Source: Cyclobacteriaceae bacterium | GTDB taxonomy: Bacteria; Bacteroidota; Bacteroidia; Cytophagales; Cyclobacteriaceae | Direction: 5' to 3' | Assembly: GCA_016787725.1 (NCBI GenBank) | Contig: JAEUTZ010000025.1 | Span: 310,001-374,000, forward strand | Length of the DNA: 64,000 bases | In this document: one piece after another, positions 1 to 11,160 of the stretch | Position numbering within the stretch: the first letter of the stretch is position 1 | How the letters are laid out: the number at the start of each line of letters is the position of its first letter | Position numbers and translations under genes: made by a program | Notes under the pieces: model-generated | Databases searched by the model: none | Seen by the model: the letters and a program-made list of their open reading frames with translations, nothing else | What the model was told of the DNA's origin: nothing

Positions 1-803
1 AAAGCAGCGGTTGCTTGGGTGTAAGAAACAATTACCTCCCCCCGCGCTCCAGCGCCCCCAGTCCGGTCTAGATTTCCTAAGTTATCCCAACCGCCACTAC
101 CGCCACCCCCGGGAACGTTTCCGGGATTTCCGTTTCCGGCACTGGTTAATCCAGCGCCACCGGCACCGCCACCCCCGGTTCCACCGGCACCTGCAGTAAT
201 TCCAGAGGCATTGCCACCCACTCCGATTTCTCCACCGGCACCACCACCACCACCACTTCCAATTGCATTAAAATCAGGTGCGCCTCCATTAGGAGCTTCA
301 GCACCTGCTCCACCATTATTCGTACCAGTACCACCGGCTCCACCGGCTCCTGTCCGATCGGCTGGGAGGCCAGAAGTTCCTCCAACACCACCTGGTGCAT
401 TTACTGGAATCGCGGATGCAAAAGTGGAAGTTCCACCAGTGCCACCGATAGTAGGATTCGTTCCTGGCGTACCCCCTGCACCAACAGTTACTGTAATGTC
501 CGCCCCGGGCGTAACTGTCACGTTATTATTTAATACAAAGGCACCGCCACCACCACCGCCACCAGCTCGGTTTTCAGTGCTGTTGCTATCGGCACCACCA
601 CCACCACCACCACCACCCCAGGCTTTCACGGTAACTTTCACAATACCGGGTGGTACCGAAAAGGTATTAGGACCAGGTACGGTAAAGGTCTGTGTTGTTG
701 TTTGACTCAGTACGGTACTTGACCAAAGAAGGGAGATAACAAATAGTCCAAAAGAAATTCGTTTTTGAAAAGGGAATAAAATGACAGTAGAAATTCTATT
801 CAT
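1..803 (-). CDS. Secreted glycine-rich protein (3' end beyond window)
   Basis: The frame is open from the ATG at 801-803 to the window edge (267 codons plus 2 nt), so the C-terminus is missing. The N-terminus is a long signal peptide ending near SSTVLSQ. A beta-type stretch (TFTVPGPNTFSVPPGIVKV) follows, then AWGGGGGGGA and a region dominated by Gly, Ala and Asn with runs of up to seven Gly. It closes with ARGEVIVSYTQ, the usual end of one glycine-rich domain unit in Bacteroidota surface proteins. Further domains, possibly including a T9SS tail, probably lie outside the window. It starts 43 bp after the lipoprotein gene and may be the last gene of the run starting at 10964. The proline-rich reading on the other strand is its shadow. 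The secreted glycine-rich identity is firm; function is unknown. Confidence 0.8.
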   Translation of the reverse strand, partial: MNRISTVILFPFQKRISFGLFVISLLWSSTVLSQTTTQTFTVPGPNTFSVPPGIVKVTVKAWGGGGGGGGADSNSTENRAGGGGGGGAFVLNNNVTVTPGADITVTVGAGGTPGTNPTIGGTGGTSTFASAIPVNAPGGVGGTSGLPADRTGAGGAGGTGTNNGGAGAEAPNGGAPDFNAIGSGGGGGAGGEIGVGGNASGITAGAGGTGGGGAGGAGLTSAGNGNPGNVPGGGGSGGWDNLGNLDRTGGAGARGEVIVSYTQATAA

Positions 804-846: not shown

Positions 847-2091
847 TTATTGCACATTCCCTTCGGAATCCATTTTCATTAGCATGATGGTACCCAACCC
901 GGCCAGCGTGGTGTTGCCACACAACACCAGGTTGCCATCACTGGATTGAAGCACCGCCACACTCCGGTCAGCAAACCGGCTGCCGATGGGTTTCTGCCAC
1001 ATTACGTTTCCGAAACCATCCGTTTTAATCAAATAATAATCCGTCTCGCCTTTTCCAAATTCAATCCCCGCGTTACTGGGTACAGTTCCGGCAATGAATA
1101 AACCACCATCACGGGTGGAAGCAATCGCATTCCCGATTTTATTTCCGGGGACTGGCACTTCTTCGCCTTGAAAGAGTGTGGTAAACGGATAGGCGGTTGA
1201 GAAAATCACCGTTCCATCTTCCGCTAAACGTTGCACTAAAATTTCGCGCTCCCCGGTGGATGTAGAATCCGTACTTCCGGAAACTGCATACCCGAATCCA
1301 AACCGGGTGATGTCCACTCCGAACTCATTGAAGTTGGGTCTACCGATCGGAAGATCAAAATCTGTATTAAGACTGTTTTGAATGGTGCGCACTAATCGAA
1401 CATCGGCTCCGTTTTGTCGGGTAACCGTACCGCCCCAAACCAGTTTGTTTTGGGTGTCAAGAAATAGTTTGTTCACCAGATAAGCGGCATCGCCCGAACC
1501 GTAAGCACGGGACCAGGTAATGGACAGATCACTTTTGTTTATTTCAGCAGCCACCATGTTATCTTCCAGGCTGTTAAGAATGTTTGCTAAAATCAAAAAG
1601 CTGCTTCCGGTTTGGCTTTCAGTGATCGCAATTCCCCGTACACTCAGGTTAGCCGGGTTCGAAGCATATTGCCGTTCTGCAGTTACCTTGCCGTCATTGT
1701 CCAGCACCAGTACATATAACTGCGATTTCCCGCTTGCATCAATATCTTCACCGGCCACAACGTAACCACCTCCGGGGATCAAATAAAGGCCATTGCCTTT
1801 GCGGCTGTAGAGCGGATCACCCTTGGCAATAAATCCAGGATATACTTGTGTCCATACTTTATTTCCCAAAGCATCTGTTTTGACCAGTTTTATTTTGTAC
1901 CGGCCGTCTTCTAATTGTGAATTGGCAAGAATTATATAGCCCTGATCACTGGTTTCCGCTACGGCAACAGCGGCATCATTGTTGCCGCCATTGAAATAGC
2001 GGATAAACGTTTCGGAGGCCCCAATTTCAACACCCTCTTCGCTGAAGCAGGAAACGAGGGCCAGTAAAAACAGGAAGTAGAGTTTCTTCAT
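847..2091 (-). CDS. Lipoprotein with propeller-like repeats
   Basis: 414 residues. The N-terminus MKKLYFLFLLALVSCFSEE has a clear lipobox (LVSC), so the protein should be lipidated. The rest is about six imperfect repeats of the type 'GGYVVAG...YVLVLDNDGKV' and 'GGLFIAGT...YYLIKTDGFGNVMWQK', the pattern of beta-propeller-like repeats in many Bacteroidota surface proteins. It shows no catalytic motif and no T9SS tail. The start codon lies 2 bp after the stop of the upstream barrel gene, so the two are almost certainly co-transcribed and probably translationally coupled. By inference it is an envelope lipoprotein that binds a ligand or partner protein in the STAND/TIR gene run. Lipoprotein confidence is high; function is unknown. 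Confidence 0.75.
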   Translation of the reverse strand: MKKLYFLFLLALVSCFSEEGVEIGASETFIRYFNGGNNDAAVAVAETSDQGYIILANSQLEDGRYKIKLVKTDALGNKVWTQVYPGFIAKGDPLYSRKGNGLYLIPGGGYVVAGEDIDASGKSQLYVLVLDNDGKVTAERQYASNPANLSVRGIAITESQTGSSFLILANILNSLEDNMVAAEINKSDLSITWSRAYGSGDAAYLVNKLFLDTQNKLVWGGTVTRQNGADVRLVRTIQNSLNTDFDLPIGRPNFNEFGVDITRFGFGYAVSGSTDSTSTGEREILVQRLAEDGTVIFSTAYPFTTLFQGEEVPVPGNKIGNAIASTRDGGLFIAGTVPSNAGIEFGKGETDYYLIKTDGFGNVMWQKPIGSRFADRSVAVLQSSDGNLVLCGNTTLAGLGTIMLMKMDSEGNVQ

Positions 2092-2093
2092 TA

Positions 2094-3146
2094 CTATTTG
2101 ATCTTAAGTTTGGCGGGTTTAAAAATGGGCAAGGAAACACCGAGCGCACCGGTAATCGTATTCAACCGAACATCATTGTGCTGGGCTGCATAATCAAGGG
2201 TTACTTCCAGGTTCGTACGCGAGTCAGCATTCACCACATTACTTAATCCGTATTGATACCGGAGTTCGGCATGCACATATAACCCTCCAATGCGATACTT
2301 CAATCCAGCCAAAGCGGTAACGGAATAGTAGAATTGCTCAAACGAATCCTTTACATCCACGTCCACACCGCTGACCGCACTACCCGAAAGTCCGGTGGTG
2401 TTTAATTGTAGATCTTGCCGGATCGATAAACTCGCAGAAGGCCCAAGGCCCGCATAGGTAATAAAAGAGCCATTTTTGTTTCGGCTGATTTCATATTGCA
2501 CTATTGCATTCAAATCGATCCAGGTTTGCTTGTAGACCGCTTCTGTCTTGCCGCCCACTTCATTCAGCGAATCACTGGCGAATAAACTGTTCTCTTTCGA
2601 AAATTGCCGTGATGCGAACATCAACTCGGGGGCAATGGAAAACTTTTTGTAGATCTTCATTTCAAACATCGCACCTGCCTGAATACCAATACCGGGTGAA
2701 TATTCACCCGATCCTGCCGCATCAACGGCTGTGTAGTAATTCGTTACCACCACCGGCATGACCAAAGAGGGCCCGAACTTCAACCCTAATGAATAAAGCG
2801 GCTCAGTACGAAATGTTTTGTACAAGGCAACGAACTCGGCCGGATCAATCTCGGGGTTGATCTGAAAGAAATGATCGGTCTCCAACACCTTGCGCATGGT
2901 TTCATCGGCTTTCTTTGGCTCTTCCAGGTAGATGTAGGTGAGGGTTAATAATTTATAGGCTTCTACTTGTTCTTCGGTGGTAAAACCAGAGCTAAGACAG
3001 GGCCCCAGAATACTTTCCAATTCGTGTAGGCGGCCCTGTTCATAGGTGGAACGTGCCAACCGCAGCGTTTGGGCACACGATGTGGCCTGGCCCTGACTTT
3101 GAAAATAGGTTCCCGCCAGTGCGAGAAGGAGCAGAAGTCGTTTCAT
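2094..3146 (-). CDS. Outer-membrane beta-barrel protein with N-terminal helical domain
   Basis: 350 residues. A Sec signal peptide (MKRLLLLLALAGTYFQSQGQA) is followed by about 100 residues of TPR-like helices with two Cys (SCAQTL, GPCLSS). From about residue 115 come alternating amphipathic strands typical of the PorT/OMP_b-brl family (LGLKFGPSLVMPV, GIGIQAGAMFEMKI, FITYAGLGPSASLSI, LYVHAELRYQYGLSN), ending in GALGVSLPIF. Its ATG overlaps the TAA of the upstream STAND gene by one base (TAATG), so translation is probably coupled. The helical part may sit in the periplasm and contact the periplasmic half of the STAND protein; that is inference. Confidence 0.72.
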   Translation of the reverse strand: MKRLLLLLALAGTYFQSQGQATSCAQTLRLARSTYEQGRLHELESILGPCLSSGFTTEEQVEAYKLLTLTYIYLEEPKKADETMRKVLETDHFFQINPEIDPAEFVALYKTFRTEPLYSLGLKFGPSLVMPVVVTNYYTAVDAAGSGEYSPGIGIQAGAMFEMKIYKKFSIAPELMFASRQFSKENSLFASDSLNEVGGKTEAVYKQTWIDLNAIVQYEISRNKNGSFITYAGLGPSASLSIRQDLQLNTTGLSGSAVSGVDVDVKDSFEQFYYSVTALAGLKYRIGGLYVHAELRYQYGLSNVVNADSRTNLEVTLDYAAQHNDVRLNTITGALGVSLPIFKPAKLKIK

Positions 3147-6100
3147 TATTTACCGCCTTTTTTATTGAGTGATTTAACACTGGATTGAATACCCGGATAA
3201 TTGGCACACGTCTTTTCATAGTCCAGGTCTTCCTTCACATACGTGTTCCATTCTTCCTGGCTCATGTTGCGACCGGCTTTTTCACATAAGATGTTGGTCA
3301 TTACTTCGAAGTTGGTCGGGTAGGCATGAATGGTTTCATCTACGCCAGTAGCTTTTTGACGTACGGAGTTGATCCCCACCATCAATTGTGAATCATCCGG
3401 AGTAAACGCAACACTCCATACCCAATCGTGATCACTCATCAGGATCGGAGGTTGTGTGAGTTGCTTGAAATTCCAGAGGCGCACCGAATAGTCTTTACTG
3501 GCCGATGCCATGAACGTGCCGGCATGGTTGAACTTAATATCCTCAATCTGCGAAGAGTGACCAGGAAGCGTACGGGAAACGATCCCGGCTGTAATCAGGT
3601 GTAACTGTCCGGCCCGGTCGCCCACCACAATTTGCTGGCCATCAGGTGCAAACGTAACGGCCGATAGGCTGGCTGCTACTTTTATAACCGTGGCAGCGTA
3701 ATTCTTGCGGATATCCCAGATATAAAGATTGCCATCCACGCCAGCCCCGGCCAGTGTGGTACCGGCACCATTCAGATCCAGGGAAACGATTTTCTCCTTG
3801 GAGGCGATCACCTCCTTGGCGGAATTCAAATCGGAATACTTAATGCTAAATCCCGAATTGTCGCGGGCGTAAAGTCCCTTGCCATCCGGAGTAAAGTGCA
3901 GGTTATTGATGTCGTACTTAAAGCCGGTAATCTTTTTCGGTGCGGCCTGCAGGTTGCTTAAGGTGTACAACTCAATGTAGTTGGCTTCGCTGTTAGTGGA
4001 ATAGAGTCCACCGGCAGCTAACATCGTCCCATCCGGACTGGTGTCAAGCGAGTAAACCAGGTACGGCTCAGTACGTTTGGTTTCGTCCATGATCACCTCG
4101 GCATTCCATTGGCCGTTGGCATAACTCCACCGGAAGATGCGGCCATCGCTGCCACCGGAATAAATGTGGTTGCCCTGGCCATGCGTTTCCAGTGCCCGGG
4201 CAGCGCCATTCTTGTGGGCCGACAAACTTTTGGTAAGCGGATGGTCGTTGTTCTTCAACGCGGTATACAAGCCACCATAGATGTCGGTATCATAGGCATA
4301 GCCGTTATACTTCTTGTTAAAGATGTAGGCCTGCTGGGCCACGAGTGCTTCAAGCACTACATCATTTCCAAGTTCTTTGGACTTAATGGCCATGGCTTTG
4401 GCAGTGGCGAGGTAACGTTCGCGTTGGGCTTTTGCAGCGTTATCGATCGCAAGTGCTTCCTGCTCTTTTGCTTTTGCTTCTTGTATTTTTGCTACTTTTT
4501 CGTTTTCAACAGCTTTAAGTCTTTGCTTTTCCGCCTCTGCTTTTGCTTCTTCAGCTTGAATACGCTTTTCCTCTGCATCGTTGCGAGCCTCGGTTGCAAG
4601 TCGAGCCTGTTCTTTGGCATCTGCTTCAGCTAATTGAGCTCTTTCGGCTGCTTCAGTTGCACGGATGGCTTCCACTCTGGCTTTTTCGGCATTTTCATTT
4701 GCCAATCTTTCATTGTCTAACGCCTTTTCCTTCTGTCTGTTAGCCTCGGCCTGCTGTACGAACGCATACACAAACGCGATCAGTGCGACACCCGCCAGTG
4801 TACCGAACACAATCGCGGTAACTCGGGCGCGCTGGAGTTTGCGTTTCTGCTCCAGTTCCTTTATGCGCTGTTCAGTGTCAAATTCTTTCTTGGAATATTC
4901 CAGAAAGATCATCGTCCGCTCAAAGGCGGGATGGTAGCGTTGCCCCCAAACCAGGGTGGGCTTGTGCTTCGCCTGCCAGTTCAACGCCAGCTGCAAATCC
5001 GGTGGCCGCCATAAACCGGCCTTGCCAACCTGGTACTGCGAAGCGGCTTCCGCCAAGCGCAGGTACATCTGCACGGCTTCACTTTCATCATCCACCCAGT
5101 TTTTCAGGCGCACCCAAATACGCATCAAACTTTCGTGCGAGATATCGATCATCGACTTGCTGCCCAGATCAATCCCAAAAGCCGGGGTCAATAACGACCG
5201 GCCCGGCTCGCGGAACTTATCAATCACGGCCACTACATCGGCTTCCGATACATCCGCAATGGAGGCAATTTCATTTAAGCGGGTAGGCCTGCGTATGCCA
5301 AAGTTCTCACCGCGCTTTTCGGTGATGGCCTTGAACATGATTTCGCAAATACGCTGCTGTTCTTCATCCAATTCATCGTAGGCTTCGTTGGCGTGCATCG
5401 AAAGCGCCTGCGACATCGTGCCAATCGCCTCATAATGCTTCAGGTCTACCGGCTCATCATCATAGTCGCGGTACTTGGCCCAGTAACTCCACGTACGCAT
5501 CAGCGCGTGCTGCAAAATCGGCAACTGATCGGGGTTGTCGCCCAGGTCATTTAATAATTGTTGTACAAGACGCGGGGTAACTTTTGCGTTGCCTACGGCT
5601 ACTGGTCCTTCAATGGCTCTGCGCTTCTGGTCGCGCGTCATTTGCGGAATCAGGTAGTGGCTGTCGTTGATCTTGCGGGTTAACTCGGGGAACTGGGCAC
5701 ATTCACCAATAAAGTCCGAACGCATGGTGATGGCCACGTAAATCGGGGAGTCTTCATAGTTCACTGCTTCCATCAACAGGTTAATGAAGGCCAGCGATTC
5801 GTTTACCGAATTCGGATCGGTGCTGTCCTTGAAGCGAAATAATTCTTCAAACTGGTCAACCAGAATCAGGTAGTTGATGTCATCTTTTCTGCGCGACTGT
5901 TGAATGGCTTCCACCAGCCCCAGCGAGGAGCTTCGCAGCAACGTGGAAACGATGGTGCGTTTGATTTTTTTATCCTCGGCATCGGCCGAAGTGTAGTCCT
6001 TGACGTTTTTGAGTAGTGACTCGGCCAGGTTATCGATCGGGCCGGCTCCGGGGCGTGTTACCACCACTTCCCAGTTCGGGCTGGCATCGGTCAGGAATCC

Positions 6101-6331
6101 GCCATACAATATGGGCAGCACACCACAATAAATGAAGGATGACTTACCACTTCCTGATGGACCGATGACGCCCACAAACCGGCTCTTGGAAAGTTTCAGC
6201 AGCACCTCATCGCTTTGCCCTTCGCGGCCAAAGAACAGATGACTCTCTTCAATCTTGAAAGGCCTTAACCCCGGAAAGGGATTGTCGGTGCCAATCAGAA
6301 CATTGCTTTGGGTTTCGTTGGTCTGGCTCAT
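3146..6331 (-). CDS. Membrane-anchored STAND NTPase with WD40 repeats
   Basis: 1061 residues. NPFPGLRPF...LFFGRE (17-36) is the hallmark opening of nSTAND1 (novel STAND) NTPases. Walker A is GPSGSGKSS (57-65), Walker B is LILVDQFEEL (155-164), MRSDF (203-207) resembles a sensor motif, and ISHESLMRIW (397-406) marks the winged-helix end of the module. One transmembrane helix (about 503-525) is preceded by a basic cluster (KRKLQRAR). A long Ala/Glu/Lys-rich coiled coil (about 526-660) follows, then WD40 repeats (about 690-1010). There is no signal peptide, so the predicted topology is NTPase in the cytoplasm and WD40 in the periplasm. STAND proteins are ligand-triggered switches in bacterial immunity and signalling. 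It lies 3 bp after the TIR-like gene and overlaps the barrel gene by 1 nt. Confidence 0.85.
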   Translation of the reverse strand: MSQTNETQSNVLIGTDNPFPGLRPFKIEESHLFFGREGQSDEVLLKLSKSRFVGVIGPSGSGKSSFIYCGVLPILYGGFLTDASPNWEVVVTRPGAGPIDNLAESLLKNVKDYTSADAEDKKIKRTIVSTLLRSSSLGLVEAIQQSRRKDDINYLILVDQFEELFRFKDSTDPNSVNESLAFINLLMEAVNYEDSPIYVAITMRSDFIGECAQFPELTRKINDSHYLIPQMTRDQKRRAIEGPVAVGNAKVTPRLVQQLLNDLGDNPDQLPILQHALMRTWSYWAKYRDYDDEPVDLKHYEAIGTMSQALSMHANEAYDELDEEQQRICEIMFKAITEKRGENFGIRRPTRLNEIASIADVSEADVVAVIDKFREPGRSLLTPAFGIDLGSKSMIDISHESLMRIWVRLKNWVDDESEAVQMYLRLAEAASQYQVGKAGLWRPPDLQLALNWQAKHKPTLVWGQRYHPAFERTMIFLEYSKKEFDTEQRIKELEQKRKLQRARVTAIVFGTLAGVALIAFVYAFVQQAEANRQKEKALDNERLANENAEKARVEAIRATEAAERAQLAEADAKEQARLATEARNDAEEKRIQAEEAKAEAEKQRLKAVENEKVAKIQEAKAKEQEALAIDNAAKAQRERYLATAKAMAIKSKELGNDVVLEALVAQQAYIFNKKYNGYAYDTDIYGGLYTALKNNDHPLTKSLSAHKNGAARALETHGQGNHIYSGGSDGRIFRWSYANGQWNAEVIMDETKRTEPYLVYSLDTSPDGTMLAAGGLYSTNSEANYIELYTLSNLQAAPKKITGFKYDINNLHFTPDGKGLYARDNSGFSIKYSDLNSAKEVIASKEKIVSLDLNGAGTTLAGAGVDGNLYIWDIRKNYAATVIKVAASLSAVTFAPDGQQIVVGDRAGQLHLITAGIVSRTLPGHSSQIEDIKFNHAGTFMASASKDYSVRLWNFKQLTQPPILMSDHDWVWSVAFTPDDSQLMVGINSVRQKATGVDETIHAYPTNFEVMTNILCEKAGRNMSQEEWNTYVKEDLDYEKTCANYPGIQSSVKSLNKKGGK

Positions 6332-6334
6332 AGC

Positions 6335-7768
6335 TTAGGAGTTAAATTCCTGGAGAAAATTTTTCAAGGTCTCGATCGACCGGCTGTTGTCACCGGTAAT
6401 CAAGGTTAAATTCTGGTTCTTAAAATTATCGAGGTTGCTGCCGGGGCTCACGATGGCCTTCCCCTGAATCGGCTTCTTGCGGCCAAAGCCCGGAGCTTTC
6501 AATAAGTCGAGCACTTTCATGCGCACCCATTGATCGTTTACTTTTCCTTTAAAGATGATGGCCCCGTCAAAGTTTCGCAGGTTGTCGATGTGTTGCTTGC
6601 GTACCTCCAGCAACTCGCCTTCAAAGGCAGGCGTCAGTACTTTAAATCCTGATTTTTCGATTGCGTCCCGAATCGGGGTAACATCACCCACATCAATTTT
6701 ATCGTGCACCAGGTAAATCGACTTTTCCTGATTCTCATCAGCTACCCTGCGTTCCTGCGATTCGAGCAATTCCTCACGCATGATGTTCTTAAAATCTTCC
6801 AGCGGGTTTTGTAAGATTTCAGCCCCTTCCTGAGCCTCCGTGTCGCGCTTGATCGTATCAATGAATGCTTTTTGTTTGTCGCTGGCATTCTTCAGGTTTT
6901 GCGAGATCCAGATCAGCCTTGAAAACTCCTGCTTGTTTTGCTTTTTTTTGGCTGCAGTTTCTGCCGCAAGACGATTCTGTATGTCAACAATCGAGCGGTC
7001 GGCTCCTTCCGGGATTTCGCCATACGCACTGCCTATCAGGTGCACCGACAGGCTGCACTCTTCCAGATCTTTTCGCACCGTTGCCTCCACCTCATTTACA
7101 CTGGTGGGTAGGGTATTCTTGGGTAAAACAATGTACCCGTGGCGCTGTAGCTCGCGCTTGATGATGTTACGCTGCACCGACAGATCGTGGCCGGTTTCCG
7201 CAAGATAAATGCTCTTTCGTTTGTATATATTTTTAACACCGGCTTTAATGTCCCCTTCATTGAGAATCATCAAAGCCTCATGGATATCATAGGCCAGGTC
7301 CACCAGTTTCATCCAATACTGCTTTTCGGCTTCCTGACTGAAAAAGTCGGAATACTCTTTTTGCATGCCGGTTTCTGTATCCAGCTGATACATTTCATAC
7401 CCGATCAGGTCGCGCAGCCGGGGCGGTTGCTCCTGCACGGTGAGGGGCGCCTTCATTACTTTAAAAATCCGATTGATTTTTGAACTGGCGGTGGCCTTAT
7501 GAAAAGCCTCCACGTTGTCCAGGCAACGACCGGATTCAACAAATTCTTTTGTCACGACCGCAACAAGAATAGCCGCATTGTTTAAAGCGGGGGCAGTAGC
7601 CGTGTCAAATTCAGACTTCAGAACAATATTGGGTTTGGTACCCAACACCTGCAGCAGCATCAGCTCCAGAAATTTCTTGAATTGCGATACCCAGCCGGTC
7701 TCATTTTTCTGAGCGGTCTCGTTATCTTTTTCAGCAAAGGTTATCAGTACGTCTATTTCAAAGGCCAT
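6335..7768 (-). CDS. Triple TIR/DUF4062-like module protein
   Basis: 477 residues, no signal peptide or membrane segment, so cytoplasmic. Residues 3-130 look like a TIR domain: EIDVLITFAEKD matches box 1 and ILVAVVTKEFVESGRCLDNVEAF the later core strand and helix. The usual TIR motif WCxxE is changed to RCLDNVE, so NADase activity is uncertain. Residues 185-320 (KSIYLAETGHDLSVQRN...SVHLIGSAYG) resemble DUF4062-type modules, and residues 349-475 (again opening KSIYLVHDK) form a third related alpha/beta unit. It lies 3 bp upstream of the STAND NTPase gene and 31 bp downstream of the transporter-like gene. TIR plus STAND-WD40 pairing is typical of bacterial conflict and signalling loci. It could be a receptor or adaptor rather than an enzyme. 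Confidence 0.68.
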   Translation of the reverse strand: MAFEIDVLITFAEKDNETAQKNETGWVSQFKKFLELMLLQVLGTKPNIVLKSEFDTATAPALNNAAILVAVVTKEFVESGRCLDNVEAFHKATASSKINRIFKVMKAPLTVQEQPPRLRDLIGYEMYQLDTETGMQKEYSDFFSQEAEKQYWMKLVDLAYDIHEALMILNEGDIKAGVKNIYKRKSIYLAETGHDLSVQRNIIKRELQRHGYIVLPKNTLPTSVNEVEATVRKDLEECSLSVHLIGSAYGEIPEGADRSIVDIQNRLAAETAAKKKQNKQEFSRLIWISQNLKNASDKQKAFIDTIKRDTEAQEGAEILQNPLEDFKNIMREELLESQERRVADENQEKSIYLVHDKIDVGDVTPIRDAIEKSGFKVLTPAFEGELLEVRKQHIDNLRNFDGAIIFKGKVNDQWVRMKVLDLLKAPGFGRKKPIQGKAIVSPGSNLDNFKNQNLTLITGDNSRSIETLKNFLQEFNS

Positions 7769-7799
7769 GACGATGGAGTAGGTGGTTAGGGTTTGTATG

Positions 7800-10700
7800 T
7801 TAAACTATCTCGTGTTCTTGTTTTTCGGTGATATTATGGATTAAGCCCTGTGCCAATTCATGATGGTTGGCCAGAACATAATAGAAGTCGATCAGATTGA
7901 TTTTGAAAATAACGGCCCGCTGCTTCGCCACCACTTCACTGATCACCGGAGTGGGCCCTTCCTGAAAGAGGTCGCCATACACATCCCCCGGATTTAAGAC
8001 CATCACCGTTTGGGTATTGTTCTTCAATTCCACCTCGCCATAAGCCGAAATTAAAATCGGCATCTCTTCCGACTGGGGTATCGGTAAACTTTCACCGGGC
8101 TTCAGGGTGATTGGCAAAATTTTATCAGCCAGATCGCTCAGTACCTTGCCCTGAATGTGCTTAAATACCGGAATCCCTTTGATCAGCATGATCATTTCAA
8201 TAAAGAGAAAGAACCCATCATCCAATCCATCGAGTAACTGATTGCTTTCAATGGAAGAGTCCAGGAATTTTTTATCCTTGTAAGGTAGCCGTTCAGAAAT
8301 GTTCTCATACGCGGTTCGGTCTTTATTATATATAACCCAGGCGGTAGTCTCCTGCAGTATTTTGTCATGGTTGAACATCTGACTGATTAACCCCCGGCTT
8401 ACCCGGAAATCCGGCATGTAAGCGGTAGCATGTACTGCACAGGCTTTTGTCCACCGGTTGTTGTAATTAAAGTCGCGATTGAGAATGTAGTTGACAACTT
8501 GTATGGGGTTGTAACTTTCGCGCGGGAAGAAAGTCTGCAATTTCTCCAGCTTTTGCGGAGTAGTGGAGTCGTCCAATAACGGAATGAGTTTGGGTTTCAG
8601 ATCCTGGTCCACAAACAAATCCAACAATTCAAGGGCGTACTGAACACTGTCCGGGGTACCTACTTCAATATTCTCTTTTACCAGCTGAACGGATTCCGGA
8701 TCATATAATAAGGAGAGCAACAACGTCAGGTGATCGTAATTATCCCGGATTTCTTCACGCAGCGCTTCCTTCAGGTATTCATAATGTGGCTCATCGGTTA
8801 ACTCGTGCAGGGCAGCGAGGTTCCAGAGTGTTTTACTCATTTCCGCATCCAGCAAATCTTTAACGGCAAGCGCTTCACGGCCGGAAGCGCGGTAGTTAAT
8901 GAAGCGCAGGGAGTACAGAATCTGTTTTACAATGCGTTTGTCCGGGTAATCAATTTTTTTCCAGAGCAGTTGCAGGCTTTCCTTGCCGGGAATGTGGCCC
9001 ATGATCTGAATGATCTTGAGCATGATTTGATCCTGTTGACCGGATTTGTGGAAAGCGGCTTCCAGCACCGGAAGCGCGGGCTCTCCGGCTTCTTTCAAGG
9101 CGGAGGCAGCCTGATGAGCATACCGCGGAGACGAAAGCAACTCAATGAGCACGTTCCAGGTTTCGGGGCGTTTTACTTTGCGCGCTGTTAATAAAGCCTC
9201 GGTTCTTACTTTTGGATCGGCATCGCGCATCAGTTCCAGCAAGATGAAAATGGTTTTCTGATTGGTGAGTTTGCGCATGAGTTTGGCAGCCAGTAACCGA
9301 TCGGATTGCTTTACCGACTTGCTAAGTTTCATGAGTTTCTCGATCGGGATCGAAAGCAGGTCACTGTCTTCAGCCATCCCGGCAGCTTGAGTGGCCAGGC
9401 CCCGGATTTCACTGTCGCCCGAATTGATGCCGAGTTCCTGAATTTTCGCCTGAGCAAACTGCGCTACTTTTTTGGACTTACTGGAAACAAGCTGCAGCAG
9501 GGAGGATTCAAAGAGGGCCGGCTCCAGTTTTTCCATGAGCTTAAGTCCATAAATAATCTTTTCATCCACAGTGCTGCGCACTTCACGCTCCAGTACGCTG
9601 TCCATCGTAAACTCTTTCACCAGGTTCTTTTTGATACTCGATTTATTTTTCACCAACGAATTTTGCAGCGTCTCGCGGTATCCATGGTACATCCGGTTGG
9701 TAACCCAATACCAAATGGCCAATACAGGCAGGGTAAAGAGGGTAATGGAGAGTACGTTAAAGATGTCGAACTGGTTCACCAACACAATCAATCCCCCGGC
9801 AATGGTACTGGCCAGAGCCGTAACAAATCCTTCAATTTTTGTCTGAACATCGATGCTGATGGATCGCTCAATCGGAACGTAATAAAATTTAAACGTGGGG
9901 TTATCGAGGGCATCGCGCAACGAATTGATAAACAACTTACTCATGGCCACGGCAATGAAGAAGAAGATGATCGTACTGCCTTCACCCGTGCTCAGATCAT
10001 ACCCAAAGAAGGTCCCCAACGCTAATGCAGAGGCAGTAAACAGAATTAATAACAATGGGGTAATTAGCAGGGAGACCCGCAATCCGTAATCCTGATTGAT
10101 GCGGTCCGTAGCAAATGTGGAAAACAAGAAACTGAAAATTACCACGGTAGCTTCAAACAAACTCAGAAACGTGGGTAAACTCTCCGTCTCAAATTGAATG
10201 GTAGTGGCGTTATAAAACGAATAGTCTACGAATCGCAGGGCTACCATCGAAACAATGATGAACAGCGACATGGTGATGATGTACCGGTTGCCGATAAACT
10301 GACCAATAGACAATTTCTTAATCTCCGATTCAGATTTAATGACCGACCGGCCTTTGACTAAGTGGCGGTTGGCCAGCATGATGAACAGGATCAGATACAC
10401 CACGATACTCACCAAGCCGATTGTATATAAGGAGGCGGTTTCAAGTCCATATCCGATGAGAATCGGGATGGTGAAGAAGGCCAGAATCTGGGCAATCGTG
10501 GTCCCAAGATCCACACTTCCAACAATCCGTTTTGCCACCCGCACGTTGAACATCCGGTTAAAGGCACCCCAGAAAATCAATTGAGTTACAAAGGTAAAGG
10601 GCAAAATCAGCGTAAAACCGAAGTAAAAGAGGTAGTCCGTGTCCTGCACGAATTGTTCTCCAAATTCAATAAAGGCCGTAAAAAAGATAACCAACACCAG

Positions 10701-10964
10701 GTTGGAAATCGCCAAAGCTGTAAACGGAATCCGGCCTTGGAGAAAATTGTAGAAAAACGTAATCAAAACCCCCATCCCCCCGGAAAGCGCCAGGGCAACC
10801 GGAAGATCGGCCCGCTCATCGAAGTGTTCCAGAAAAAGAGATTGAGAGGCAACCGCCACGGTTGCTAAGAATAAGCCCAAAAAGAAGCTCATAATCAGCA
10901 AAAATGAAACCGGGCCGGTCTCTTCGGGCTCAACATCTAATAGATTCCATAGTCTGGACAGCAT
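7800..10964 (-). CDS. Nucleotide-transporter-like (NTT/MFS) protein fused to HEAT repeats and a cNMP-binding-like domain
   Basis: 1054 residues. The first ~430 residues hold about 12 hydrophobic helices resembling the ATP/ADP antiporter (Npt/Tlc) family, opening with LLDVEPEETGPVSFLLIMSFFLGLF. A helical region (about 430-880) contains HEAT-like repeats (RTEALLTARKVKRPETWNVLIELL; QDQIMLKIIQIMGHI). The last ~140 residues look like a cyclic-nucleotide-binding fold (LKPGESLPIP...ISAYGEVEL...VLNPGDVYGDLF), but the phosphate-binding Arg expected after the GE-type motif is not evident. It is the first gene of the minus-strand run, 31 bp before the TIR-like gene. Possible roles are nucleotide exchange or nucleotide sensing at the inner membrane. 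Fusion and fold are fairly sure; substrate is unknown. Confidence 0.72.
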   Translation of the reverse strand: MLSRLWNLLDVEPEETGPVSFLLIMSFFLGLFLATVAVASQSLFLEHFDERADLPVALALSGGMGVLITFFYNFLQGRIPFTALAISNLVLVIFFTAFIEFGEQFVQDTDYLFYFGFTLILPFTFVTQLIFWGAFNRMFNVRVAKRIVGSVDLGTTIAQILAFFTIPILIGYGLETASLYTIGLVSIVVYLILFIMLANRHLVKGRSVIKSESEIKKLSIGQFIGNRYIITMSLFIIVSMVALRFVDYSFYNATTIQFETESLPTFLSLFEATVVIFSFLFSTFATDRINQDYGLRVSLLITPLLLILFTASALALGTFFGYDLSTGEGSTIIFFFIAVAMSKLFINSLRDALDNPTFKFYYVPIERSISIDVQTKIEGFVTALASTIAGGLIVLVNQFDIFNVLSITLFTLPVLAIWYWVTNRMYHGYRETLQNSLVKNKSSIKKNLVKEFTMDSVLEREVRSTVDEKIIYGLKLMEKLEPALFESSLLQLVSSKSKKVAQFAQAKIQELGINSGDSEIRGLATQAAGMAEDSDLLSIPIEKLMKLSKSVKQSDRLLAAKLMRKLTNQKTIFILLELMRDADPKVRTEALLTARKVKRPETWNVLIELLSSPRYAHQAASALKEAGEPALPVLEAAFHKSGQQDQIMLKIIQIMGHIPGKESLQLLWKKIDYPDKRIVKQILYSLRFINYRASGREALAVKDLLDAEMSKTLWNLAALHELTDEPHYEYLKEALREEIRDNYDHLTLLLSLLYDPESVQLVKENIEVGTPDSVQYALELLDLFVDQDLKPKLIPLLDDSTTPQKLEKLQTFFPRESYNPIQVVNYILNRDFNYNNRWTKACAVHATAYMPDFRVSRGLISQMFNHDKILQETTAWVIYNKDRTAYENISERLPYKDKKFLDSSIESNQLLDGLDDGFFLFIEMIMLIKGIPVFKHIQGKVLSDLADKILPITLKPGESLPIPQSEEMPILISAYGEVELKNNTQTVMVLNPGDVYGDLFQEGPTPVISEVVAKQRAVIFKINLIDFYYVLANHHELAQGLIHNITEKQEHEIV

Positions 10965-11144
10965 AGGGTGGAATTTGGTAATCTAAATTTTAGACATTTC
11001 ATCGAAAATTCCTATTAAAGCAATAGAGCATTTGGAAAAGCTTAACCGCTGATTAATAAAGTTTTGAATACGCTAATGGAACCCGATGGTAATTCGCTTG
11101 TCGAAATTCCTGCAAAAAAGAGAGAATTAACACCGTTTTGGCCA

Positions 11145-11160
11145 AAGAGGAGAACCTCTT
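11145..11160 (-). terminator. Small hairpin at the end of queA
   Basis: A 6-bp inverted repeat (AAGAGG / CCTCTT, 4-nt loop) overlaps the queA stop codon and is followed on the minus strand by only TTTGG. It is a weak terminator candidate. The rest of the 194-bp gap (10965-11158) shows no gene and no TAnnTTTG box on the minus strand, so the promoter of the downstream run is not identified. Confidence 0.3.

Follow-up and report, generated by a model that had tools for sequence, protein, structure and literature searches.

Bacterial conflict systems predicted in earlier surveys pair nSTAND1 NTPases with TIR-type partners and in places carry WD40 propellers, as described in the sections of those surveys cited here (PMC8195603, PMC10907252). 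Here we analyse a 64,000-nucleotide stretch of a Cyclobacteriaceae genome (the window, G000:C18:310001-374000) that holds a run of six genes, A to F. At the domain level this run is of the same STAND/TIR kind, and it continues to the outer membrane and to a giant protein with a tail of the type IX secretion system (T9SS). The DUF4062 fold of gene B is common to Swarozyc, and the NTPase-plus-WD40 layout of gene C is like that of TEP1, in the passages available on both (PMC13174449). Gene A shares its three parts, in the same order, with fusions of an NTT carrier, HEAT repeats and a cyclic-nucleotide-binding domain (NTT-HEAT-cNBD), which form a broad bacterial clade described, in the part cited, as functionally uncharacterised (PMC5381601).

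The locus departs from each of these. Compared with the nSTAND1/TIR systems as those sections present them, C is anchored in the membrane with its WD40 propeller predicted outside the cytosol, the TIR-like domains are without the predicted catalytic glutamate, and the operon extends to outer-membrane and T9SS parts. Compared with Swarozyc and TEP1, again as far as the available passages go, the predicted glutamate position is glutamine in 95 of 105 relatives, the architecture is split over two genes and a membrane anchor is present. A lies mostly in an operon with STAND and outer-membrane genes; no such operon is described in the cited part of the account of the NTT-HEAT-cNBD clade, and a word search of its text returned no 'Cytophag' (PMC5381601).

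Two further likenesses concern the cell surface. T9SS surface adhesins of the SprB type have PorP/SprF partners; the locus resembles them in its giant repeat protein and neighbouring outer-membrane barrel genes, although D is an eight-strand OmpA-type barrel with a TPR part and no PorP/SprF match, and the T9SS tail is of type A and coupled to a STAND NTPase. Myxobacterial TraA/TraB may be alike in working principle, with a polymorphic surface part deciding specificity, but to our knowledge they have no STAND, TIR or NTT part. Each domain of the locus is known, and its layout through the envelope fits no described system found in open-licence PubMed Central (PMC) papers, none of which joins nSTAND1/TIR, DUF4062 and NTT-HEAT-cNBD with D, E and F. 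The original prediction, made from the letters of the window, had called the run possibly undescribed, which holds as far as these open-licence papers reach. We give about an even chance to the reading developed below, in which A to F form one envelope-spanning module for sensing and display, with a STAND sensor that crosses the envelope and is linked to a giant surface protein of the T9SS.

The operon and its parts

The five same-direction genes A to E lie exactly where they had been placed, with spacings of 31 (A-B), 3 (B-C), -1 (C-D) and 2 bp (D-E), and Pfam, profile and structure-model matches uphold the domain architecture proposed for them. Gene boundaries are those of the open reading frame (ORF) list.

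1-803, minus strand: gene F, of which the window holds the first 267 codons and G000:C18 below 310001 the rest; a giant cargo of 4748 aa in full (Gly_rich_2, Big, fn3, PKD and Por_Secre_tail matches)
847-2091, minus strand: gene E, 414 aa
2047-2049, minus strand: lipoprotein Cys15 of E (lipobox); E has propeller-type repeats
2094-3146, minus strand: gene D, 350 aa
2121-2807, minus strand: eight-strand outer-membrane barrel of D, residues 114-342 (structure model)
2823-3083, minus strand: TPR of D, predicted periplasmic, residues 22-108 (TPR match, structure model)
3146-6331, minus strand: gene C, 1061 aa
3149-4264, minus strand: WD40 propeller of C (WD40 match)
4382-4750, minus strand: alanine-heptad coil of C, between helix and WD40
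4757-4813, minus strand: membrane helix of C, residues 507-525 (helix prediction)
5030-6280, minus strand: nSTAND1 NTPase of C, residues 18-434 (PF20703, 4.2e-97)
6335-7768, minus strand: gene B, 477 aa
6338-6730, minus strand: third TIR-like domain of B, residues 347-477 (structure model)
6746-7222, minus strand: DUF4062 domain of B, residues 183-341 (DUF4062 match, structure model)
7259-7759, minus strand: TIR domain of B, residues 4-170 (TIR_2 match, structure model)
7800-10964, minus strand: gene A, 1054 aa
7863-8042, minus strand: C-terminal fold of A resembling a cyclic nucleotide monophosphate (cNMP)-binding domain (weak Pfam match, 0.017)
9096-9341, minus strand: HEAT repeats of A, best stretch (Pfam, 6.1e-10)
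about 9615-10964, minus strand: NTT-like carrier part of A (profile match to solved ADP/ATP carriers)
10965-11158, minus strand: putative promoter region, 194 bp between the upstream QueA-like gene and A

Gene C carries the marks of an nSTAND1 NTPase, with the Walker A motif GPSGSGKSS at residue 57 and ILVDQFEE at 156. A membrane helix starts between residues 470 and 560 in 114 of 115 C proteins (exactly one segment in 104, more in 11), and in 110 of these 114 the stretch preceding the helix has the higher net positive charge; the coil (median 122 residues, alanine at every seventh) and the WD40 propeller are therefore predicted to be held in the periplasm, with nSTAND1 in the cytosol. The cysteines C1016 and C1042 of C are both present in 108 proteins, both absent in 6 and single in 1 (n=115); for C24 and C50 of D the counts are 99, 8 and 5 (n=112). 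Such co-occurrence is as periplasmic disulfides would show, and on these alignments we predict one in each protein. That the run senses the envelope, as had been proposed, is plausible.

Gene B has the TIR fold, in a structure model with three TIR-like domains (pLDDT, the local confidence score, 80.8; pTM, the predicted template-modelling score, 0.44), the low pTM leaving their mutual arrangement open. A search of the PDB with the single B sequence gave nothing useful, and a profile search gave weak plant and TLR TIR matches only. The glutamate of TIR NADases is absent: at residues 85, 264 and 418, which we take to be the catalytic positions from motif alignment and not from a superposed active site, the window has N85, Q264 and K418. 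Among 105 relatives, position 85 is glutamate in 15, position 264 is glutamine in 95 and glutamate in 8, and position 418 is lysine in 103. B is predicted to be without NADase chemistry.

Other B-type genes were seen beside these. The genome of the window has two further TIR_2 loci (L001 and L002, G000:C19) and a locus in which a TIR-DUF4062 protein is followed by two large nSTAND-type proteins (L050 445-10193, G000:C26); partial B matches of the latter kind recur in several relatives. An extra B-type gene stands upstream of A in L131 (302 aa) and L135 (299 aa), both short, and in L134 (478 aa). In L077 (G013:C72) stops interrupt A and B, possibly by assembly error or decay.

A 21-row profile of A matches solved ADP/ATP carriers (9j3n) at 2.5e-22, and the Pfam TLC model matches just 2 of the 21 rows at E <= 1; at the level of profiles the label 'NTT-like' is therefore correct, though distant. 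With the same threshold HEAT repeats are found in all 21 rows and the cNMP fold in 16 (0.017 in the window, below the Pfam cut-off), so that A has the three parts of an NTT-HEAT-cNBD fusion in one chain. The phosphate-binding cassette of the cNMP fold, judged by eye, is not conserved in the 21 rows, and the suggestion that the system is nucleotide-linked is not supported.

Genes D to F supply the outer-membrane and surface parts. D begins with a signal peptide and has the OmpA-type eight-strand barrel fold; PF13568 is the only outer-membrane family that it matches, PF11751 (PorP/SprF) giving none. E weakly resembles LipL53-type propellers (2.8e-05, far under the family cut-off), and a lipobox is present in 103 of 105 E proteins, 83 of them with an acidic residue soon after, by a crude rule that picked some wrong cysteines. 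F starts at 803, 43 bp past E. The glycine-rich secreted protein suggested as a possible sixth gene does adjoin E; its full size and its T9SS tail go beyond what had been suggested. The tail is of type A (TIGR04183, 8.7e-11; PF18962, 6.5e-13), and the presence of a T9SS was judged by SprA in the same genome. Fifteen of 20 ORFs downstream of the operon have a tail-like end, and TIGR04183 matches all ten of those 15 that were tested. With 32 tail-model matches in the whole genome of the window, the steady adjacency of the operon to a tailed F is unexpected by chance.

The 194 bp before A are the widest gap before the run, and hence the likely promoter site. Promoter and terminator scans stayed near the level of shuffled sequence (14 promoter-like sites versus 15.8 in shuffles; 18 terminators versus 14.3) and were set aside. 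Judging from their sequences, the upstream genes are presumably QueA and menaquinone genes and the gene beyond F a TerC gene.

Gene order and its variants

Loci entered the analysis through similarity of B or C alone; A, D, E and F played no part in the choice. The 142 loci with C became 124 after identical C segments were removed, 120 after four loci of another B-C type (L048, L050, L180 and L181) were excluded, and 94 with room on both sides. The order A-B-C-D-E stands in 82 of these 94; the 12 exceptions are five ACDE, four ABCD, two BCDE and one BCDA. The coupling of a TIR/STAND core to an NTT-like protein and outer-membrane parts, on which the original prediction turned, is thus conserved. 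Median gaps across loci are 20.5 (A-B), 4 (B-C), 4 (C-D), -1 (D-E) and 35.5 bp (E-F). A large F-like ORF (at least 500 aa, same strand, within 600 bp) follows E in 76 of 81 loci that have E and more than 1.8 kb beyond it. The other five have split repeat ORFs (L131), none (L124, L148 and L169) or a repeat ORF on the opposite strand (L061). Of 21 joined stretches from 20 genomes, those of G097 and G138 are without an F-like gene after the operon; in the second copy in G039 this gene is on the opposite strand, in G024 and G044 it is divided between two frames, and one stretch is partly unreadable. B lacks C within about 20 kb in L046 and L172.

B is near-core in the genus, with a match in 31 of 35 relatives and in 24 of the 25 that are at least 90% complete; the match in G022 is partial and to another DUF4062 protein, and the frame in G013 is interrupted. 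Order-wide, 63 of 391 genomes and 31 of 129 genera have a B match, and phylum-wide 9 of 296 genomes, four within the order and five outside it with weaker matches (the best at 1.0e-32 over 410/486 positions). Taking the best 80 of 569 relatives, we find all or part of the operon in Cyclobacteriaceae, Chryseolinea, Chryseotalea, Chryseosolibacter, Fulvivirga, Marivirga, Shiella, Raineya (C-D-E only on its contig), a Sporocytophaga metagenome-assembled genome (MAG) and a small number of MAGs that carry the label Bacteroidales or Flavobacteriales. Environmental isolates with A to E include Chryseolinea lacunae (L103), Marivirga atlantica (L116) and Chryseosolibacter histidini (L101). In the 391-genome survey the operon is absent from some families of the order and from some genera of the window's own family.

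Linkage was counted in the same survey at thresholds of at least 170 bits for B loci and at least 687 bits for A loci. A lies within 3 kb of 50 of the 67 B loci, and D within 6 kb of 60. For the 80 A loci, D is no more than 9 kb away in 63 and B no more than 3 kb away in 50. Lastly, 77 of 98 D loci are near A or B, the remaining 21, some at contig ends, being near neither. Nine of the 17 B loci without A belong to genus g54, in which D is near B and A is elsewhere (B-C-D-E was read in L178). Conversely, in 17 A loci D is near but no B reaches the threshold; among these, G097:C104 has a weaker B match. The original prediction had named homologues lying apart in most genomes as the outcome that would count against it; most do not lie apart (50 of 67 B loci are near A), with exceptions that include a paralogous operon without B. 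A-C-D-E-F without B was read in two of the 17 A loci that have D but no B, G284 (L225) and the window's own genome (L222).

Variants and neighbours of the operon, like the exchange of surface parts described below, extend what had been predicted. A HAMP-SpoIIE phosphatase is encoded between A and B in seven loci (L039, L047, L142, L145, L150, L158 and L177; confirmed by Pfam in L142), and L224 has, by eye, a fused sensor-SpoIIE-like protein. With duplicates kept (n=114), and with one case of each confirmed by Pfam, 7 loci have an OmpH-type gene in front of A, 6 have a PorP/SprF gene upstream on the opposite strand, and 34 have a gene for a TPR-PD40-OmpA protein in that same position. In L041 (8875-11445) a D-type TPR is fused to a TonB-dependent receptor adjoining B and C, and a gene that by eye is formyltransferase-like precedes a low-similarity A. 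Four A-B-C-D loci have room for E but no E on the same strand, and three of the four have contractile-injection genes downstream. A GH18-type gene accompanies these in L179 and L200, and L044 also carries E-like and F-like genes on the other strand; the fourth locus, L043, has no injection genes within 4.7 kb.

L222 4974-18708 (G000:C13): second operon copy, without B (OmpH-like, A, C, D, E, F), the contig stopping within F
L179 15648-19067 / L221: contractile-injection genes (tube, sheath or baseplate)
L044/L200: contractile-injection genes (tube, sheath or baseplate)
L130 21072-21758: contractile-injection genes (tube, sheath or baseplate)

Apparent exchange of a surface cassette

Across 78 loci with all five genes, mean pairwise identity declines from the inside of the cell to the outside: 0.72 for the STAND part of C, 0.41-0.50 for parts of A and B, 0.45 for the TPR of D, 0.36 for the WD40 of C, 0.27 for the barrel of D and 0.24 for E. 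From these loci we took 39 rows, the two largest E classes plus the window, and placed them on a tree of A, B and C-STAND with two outgroup rows (a quick tree, with Shimodaira-Hasegawa-like approximate likelihood ratio support only, and long-branch warnings for five rows). The D barrel, clustered alone, splits as the E classes do in 39 of 39 rows. On the core tree the class changes at least seven times if only supported branches are counted, and nine times on the best tree; seven independent pairs lie on supported branches (sign test, 0.0156), and the window, of class 1, is placed among class 2 loci.

The TPR part of D, with 38 of 39 rows in a single cluster, has no barrel-like split, and it correlates better with the core (Spearman 0.71-0.77) than with the barrel (0.52). 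As barrel and E classes switch together and the TPR of D goes with the core instead, the unit of exchange seems to start inside gene D, on a fixed chassis. F appears to travel with it: with core similarity removed, the N-terminus of F is correlated with E (partial r 0.21) and with D (0.20), with 0 of 5000 permutations as extreme in each case (70 loci), and related F N-termini are found in 119 of 382 pairs at E identity of at least 0.28 versus 47 of 2033 below it. The WD40 propeller gives a partial r of 0.36 with the barrel and 0.48 with E once the core is removed, figures that still carry part of the effect of relatedness. The low agreement of the WD40 classes with those of the cassette, in 8 of 39 rows, counts against a simple lock-and-key pairing of WD40 and barrel.

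A proposed surface sensor and its rivals

Gene order, domains, the T9SS tail and the joint class switching of D barrel and E, all apparent in the sequences, are the fixed points from which we infer a mechanism. F would be a giant, variable surface protein exported by the T9SS; E and the D barrel would be placed at the outer membrane and, together with F, make up a specificity cassette that can be exchanged, and the D TPR would extend into the periplasm. C, anchored in the inner membrane by one helix with nSTAND1 in the cytosol, would turn its coil and WD40 to the periplasm and meet the D TPR there. A change at the surface, such as contact or cargo displayed or lost, might then pass from D and E to the WD40 and trip ATP-dependent assembly of C. 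B, whose three TIR-like domains are without the predicted catalytic glutamate, would be a cytosolic adaptor that reads this assembly, as would A and, in some genomes, the SpoIIE-type phosphatase encoded between A and B; A and the phosphatase would be the outputs.

Several observations weigh against this mechanism. Of the 67 B loci, 17 are without A within 3 kb and 7 without D within 6 kb; in G284, G053 and G317 B is near neither, and the paralogous operon is without B altogether. Injection genes stand beside A-B-C-D in three loci, so no single role of F fits all. A minority of B proteins do have a glutamate, 15 of 105 at residue 85 and 8 at residue 264. The class comparison used rows from the two largest E classes and forced each part into two clusters. 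The link of F to E is modest, F clusters being noisy owing to repeats. A match between WD40 and the cassette finds no support in the WD40 classes, given their poor agreement with the barrel/E classes (the 8 of 39 above); in the seven independent pairs the WD40 changes the same way in none, the opposite way in three and without difference in four.

The rival closest to the sensing module is an export or assembly machine, in which A to E secrete, insert or anchor F (or injection particles elsewhere) and STAND ATP powers or times release, with no signalling. The F-like ORF that adjoins the operon in 76 of 81 loci speaks for it, as do the OmpH-type, PorP/SprF and TPR-PD40-OmpA neighbours and the three loci with contractile-injection genes. 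It has no place, however, for signalling parts, namely a TIR-like adaptor, a cNMP-like fold and SpoIIE partners, and the genome's 31 other T9SS tail matches face two known operons, so that most tailed proteins probably need none. On the strength of B, the A C-terminus and the phosphatases we prefer signalling and think pure export unlikely, close as it comes.

A bolder form of sensing would be self/non-self or contact recognition of the NLR kind. Polymorphic F with a matched D barrel and E would be swapped as one cassette, with its breakpoint in D; the periplasm-facing STAND receptor and the three-fold TIR-like adaptor would report match or mismatch, and in some lineages the chassis would govern an injection system. 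Surface parts are indeed polymorphic, as in kin-recognition receptors, and partner choice is putative; we offer this as a speculation with roughly one chance in five.

An antiphage or suicide system, in which C would detect envelope damage done by phage and B would kill the cell by cleaving NAD, is improbable. Its appeal lies in the TIR_2 and DUF4062 matches of B, in the fast variation of E and the D barrel, as in phage receptors, in the NADase activity of DUF4062 in Swarozyc (PMC13174449, passages cited) and in the predicted conflict systems that join nSTAND1 and TIR (PMC8195603, PMC10907252, sections cited). Against it, none of the three TIR-like sites of the window has the predicted catalytic glutamate, most relatives lack it at each site as well, and B is near-core in the genus. 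PADLOC matched nothing in A, B, D or E and gave weak mad3/mad8 P-loop hits in C; of five neighbours, scanned on the upstream side only, one had hits, to helix-turn-helix models. The earlier proposal of a defence role is not supported, and the module is more likely a cell-surface sensor than a simple virus-defence toxin.

We lend equally little credence to a nucleotide-linked device, in which A would carry nucleotides through the inner membrane, with the module tying this flux to the state of the surface. The NTT fold by profile (2.5e-22) and the breadth of the NTT-HEAT-cNBD clade favour it, but the cited part of the clade's description calls these fusions functionally uncharacterised (PMC5381601), the cNMP ligand motif is, by eye, not conserved, and A is missing near 17 of 67 B loci. 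A contig artefact is rejected, as the gene order recurs in isolates and MAGs, and so is chance adjacency of unrelated genes, given synteny among related loci and the order-wide survey.

STAND receptors are known mainly as cytosolic alarms. If the sensing and display module is real, its conserved STAND protein, extending across the inner membrane in the direction of outer-membrane parts and joined by a surface cassette that is swapped whole, would give bacteria the equivalent of a cell-surface receptor connected to an NLR-type core. The module would also give a concrete setting to NTT-HEAT proteins, glutamate-less TIR-like domains and giant T9SS proteins.

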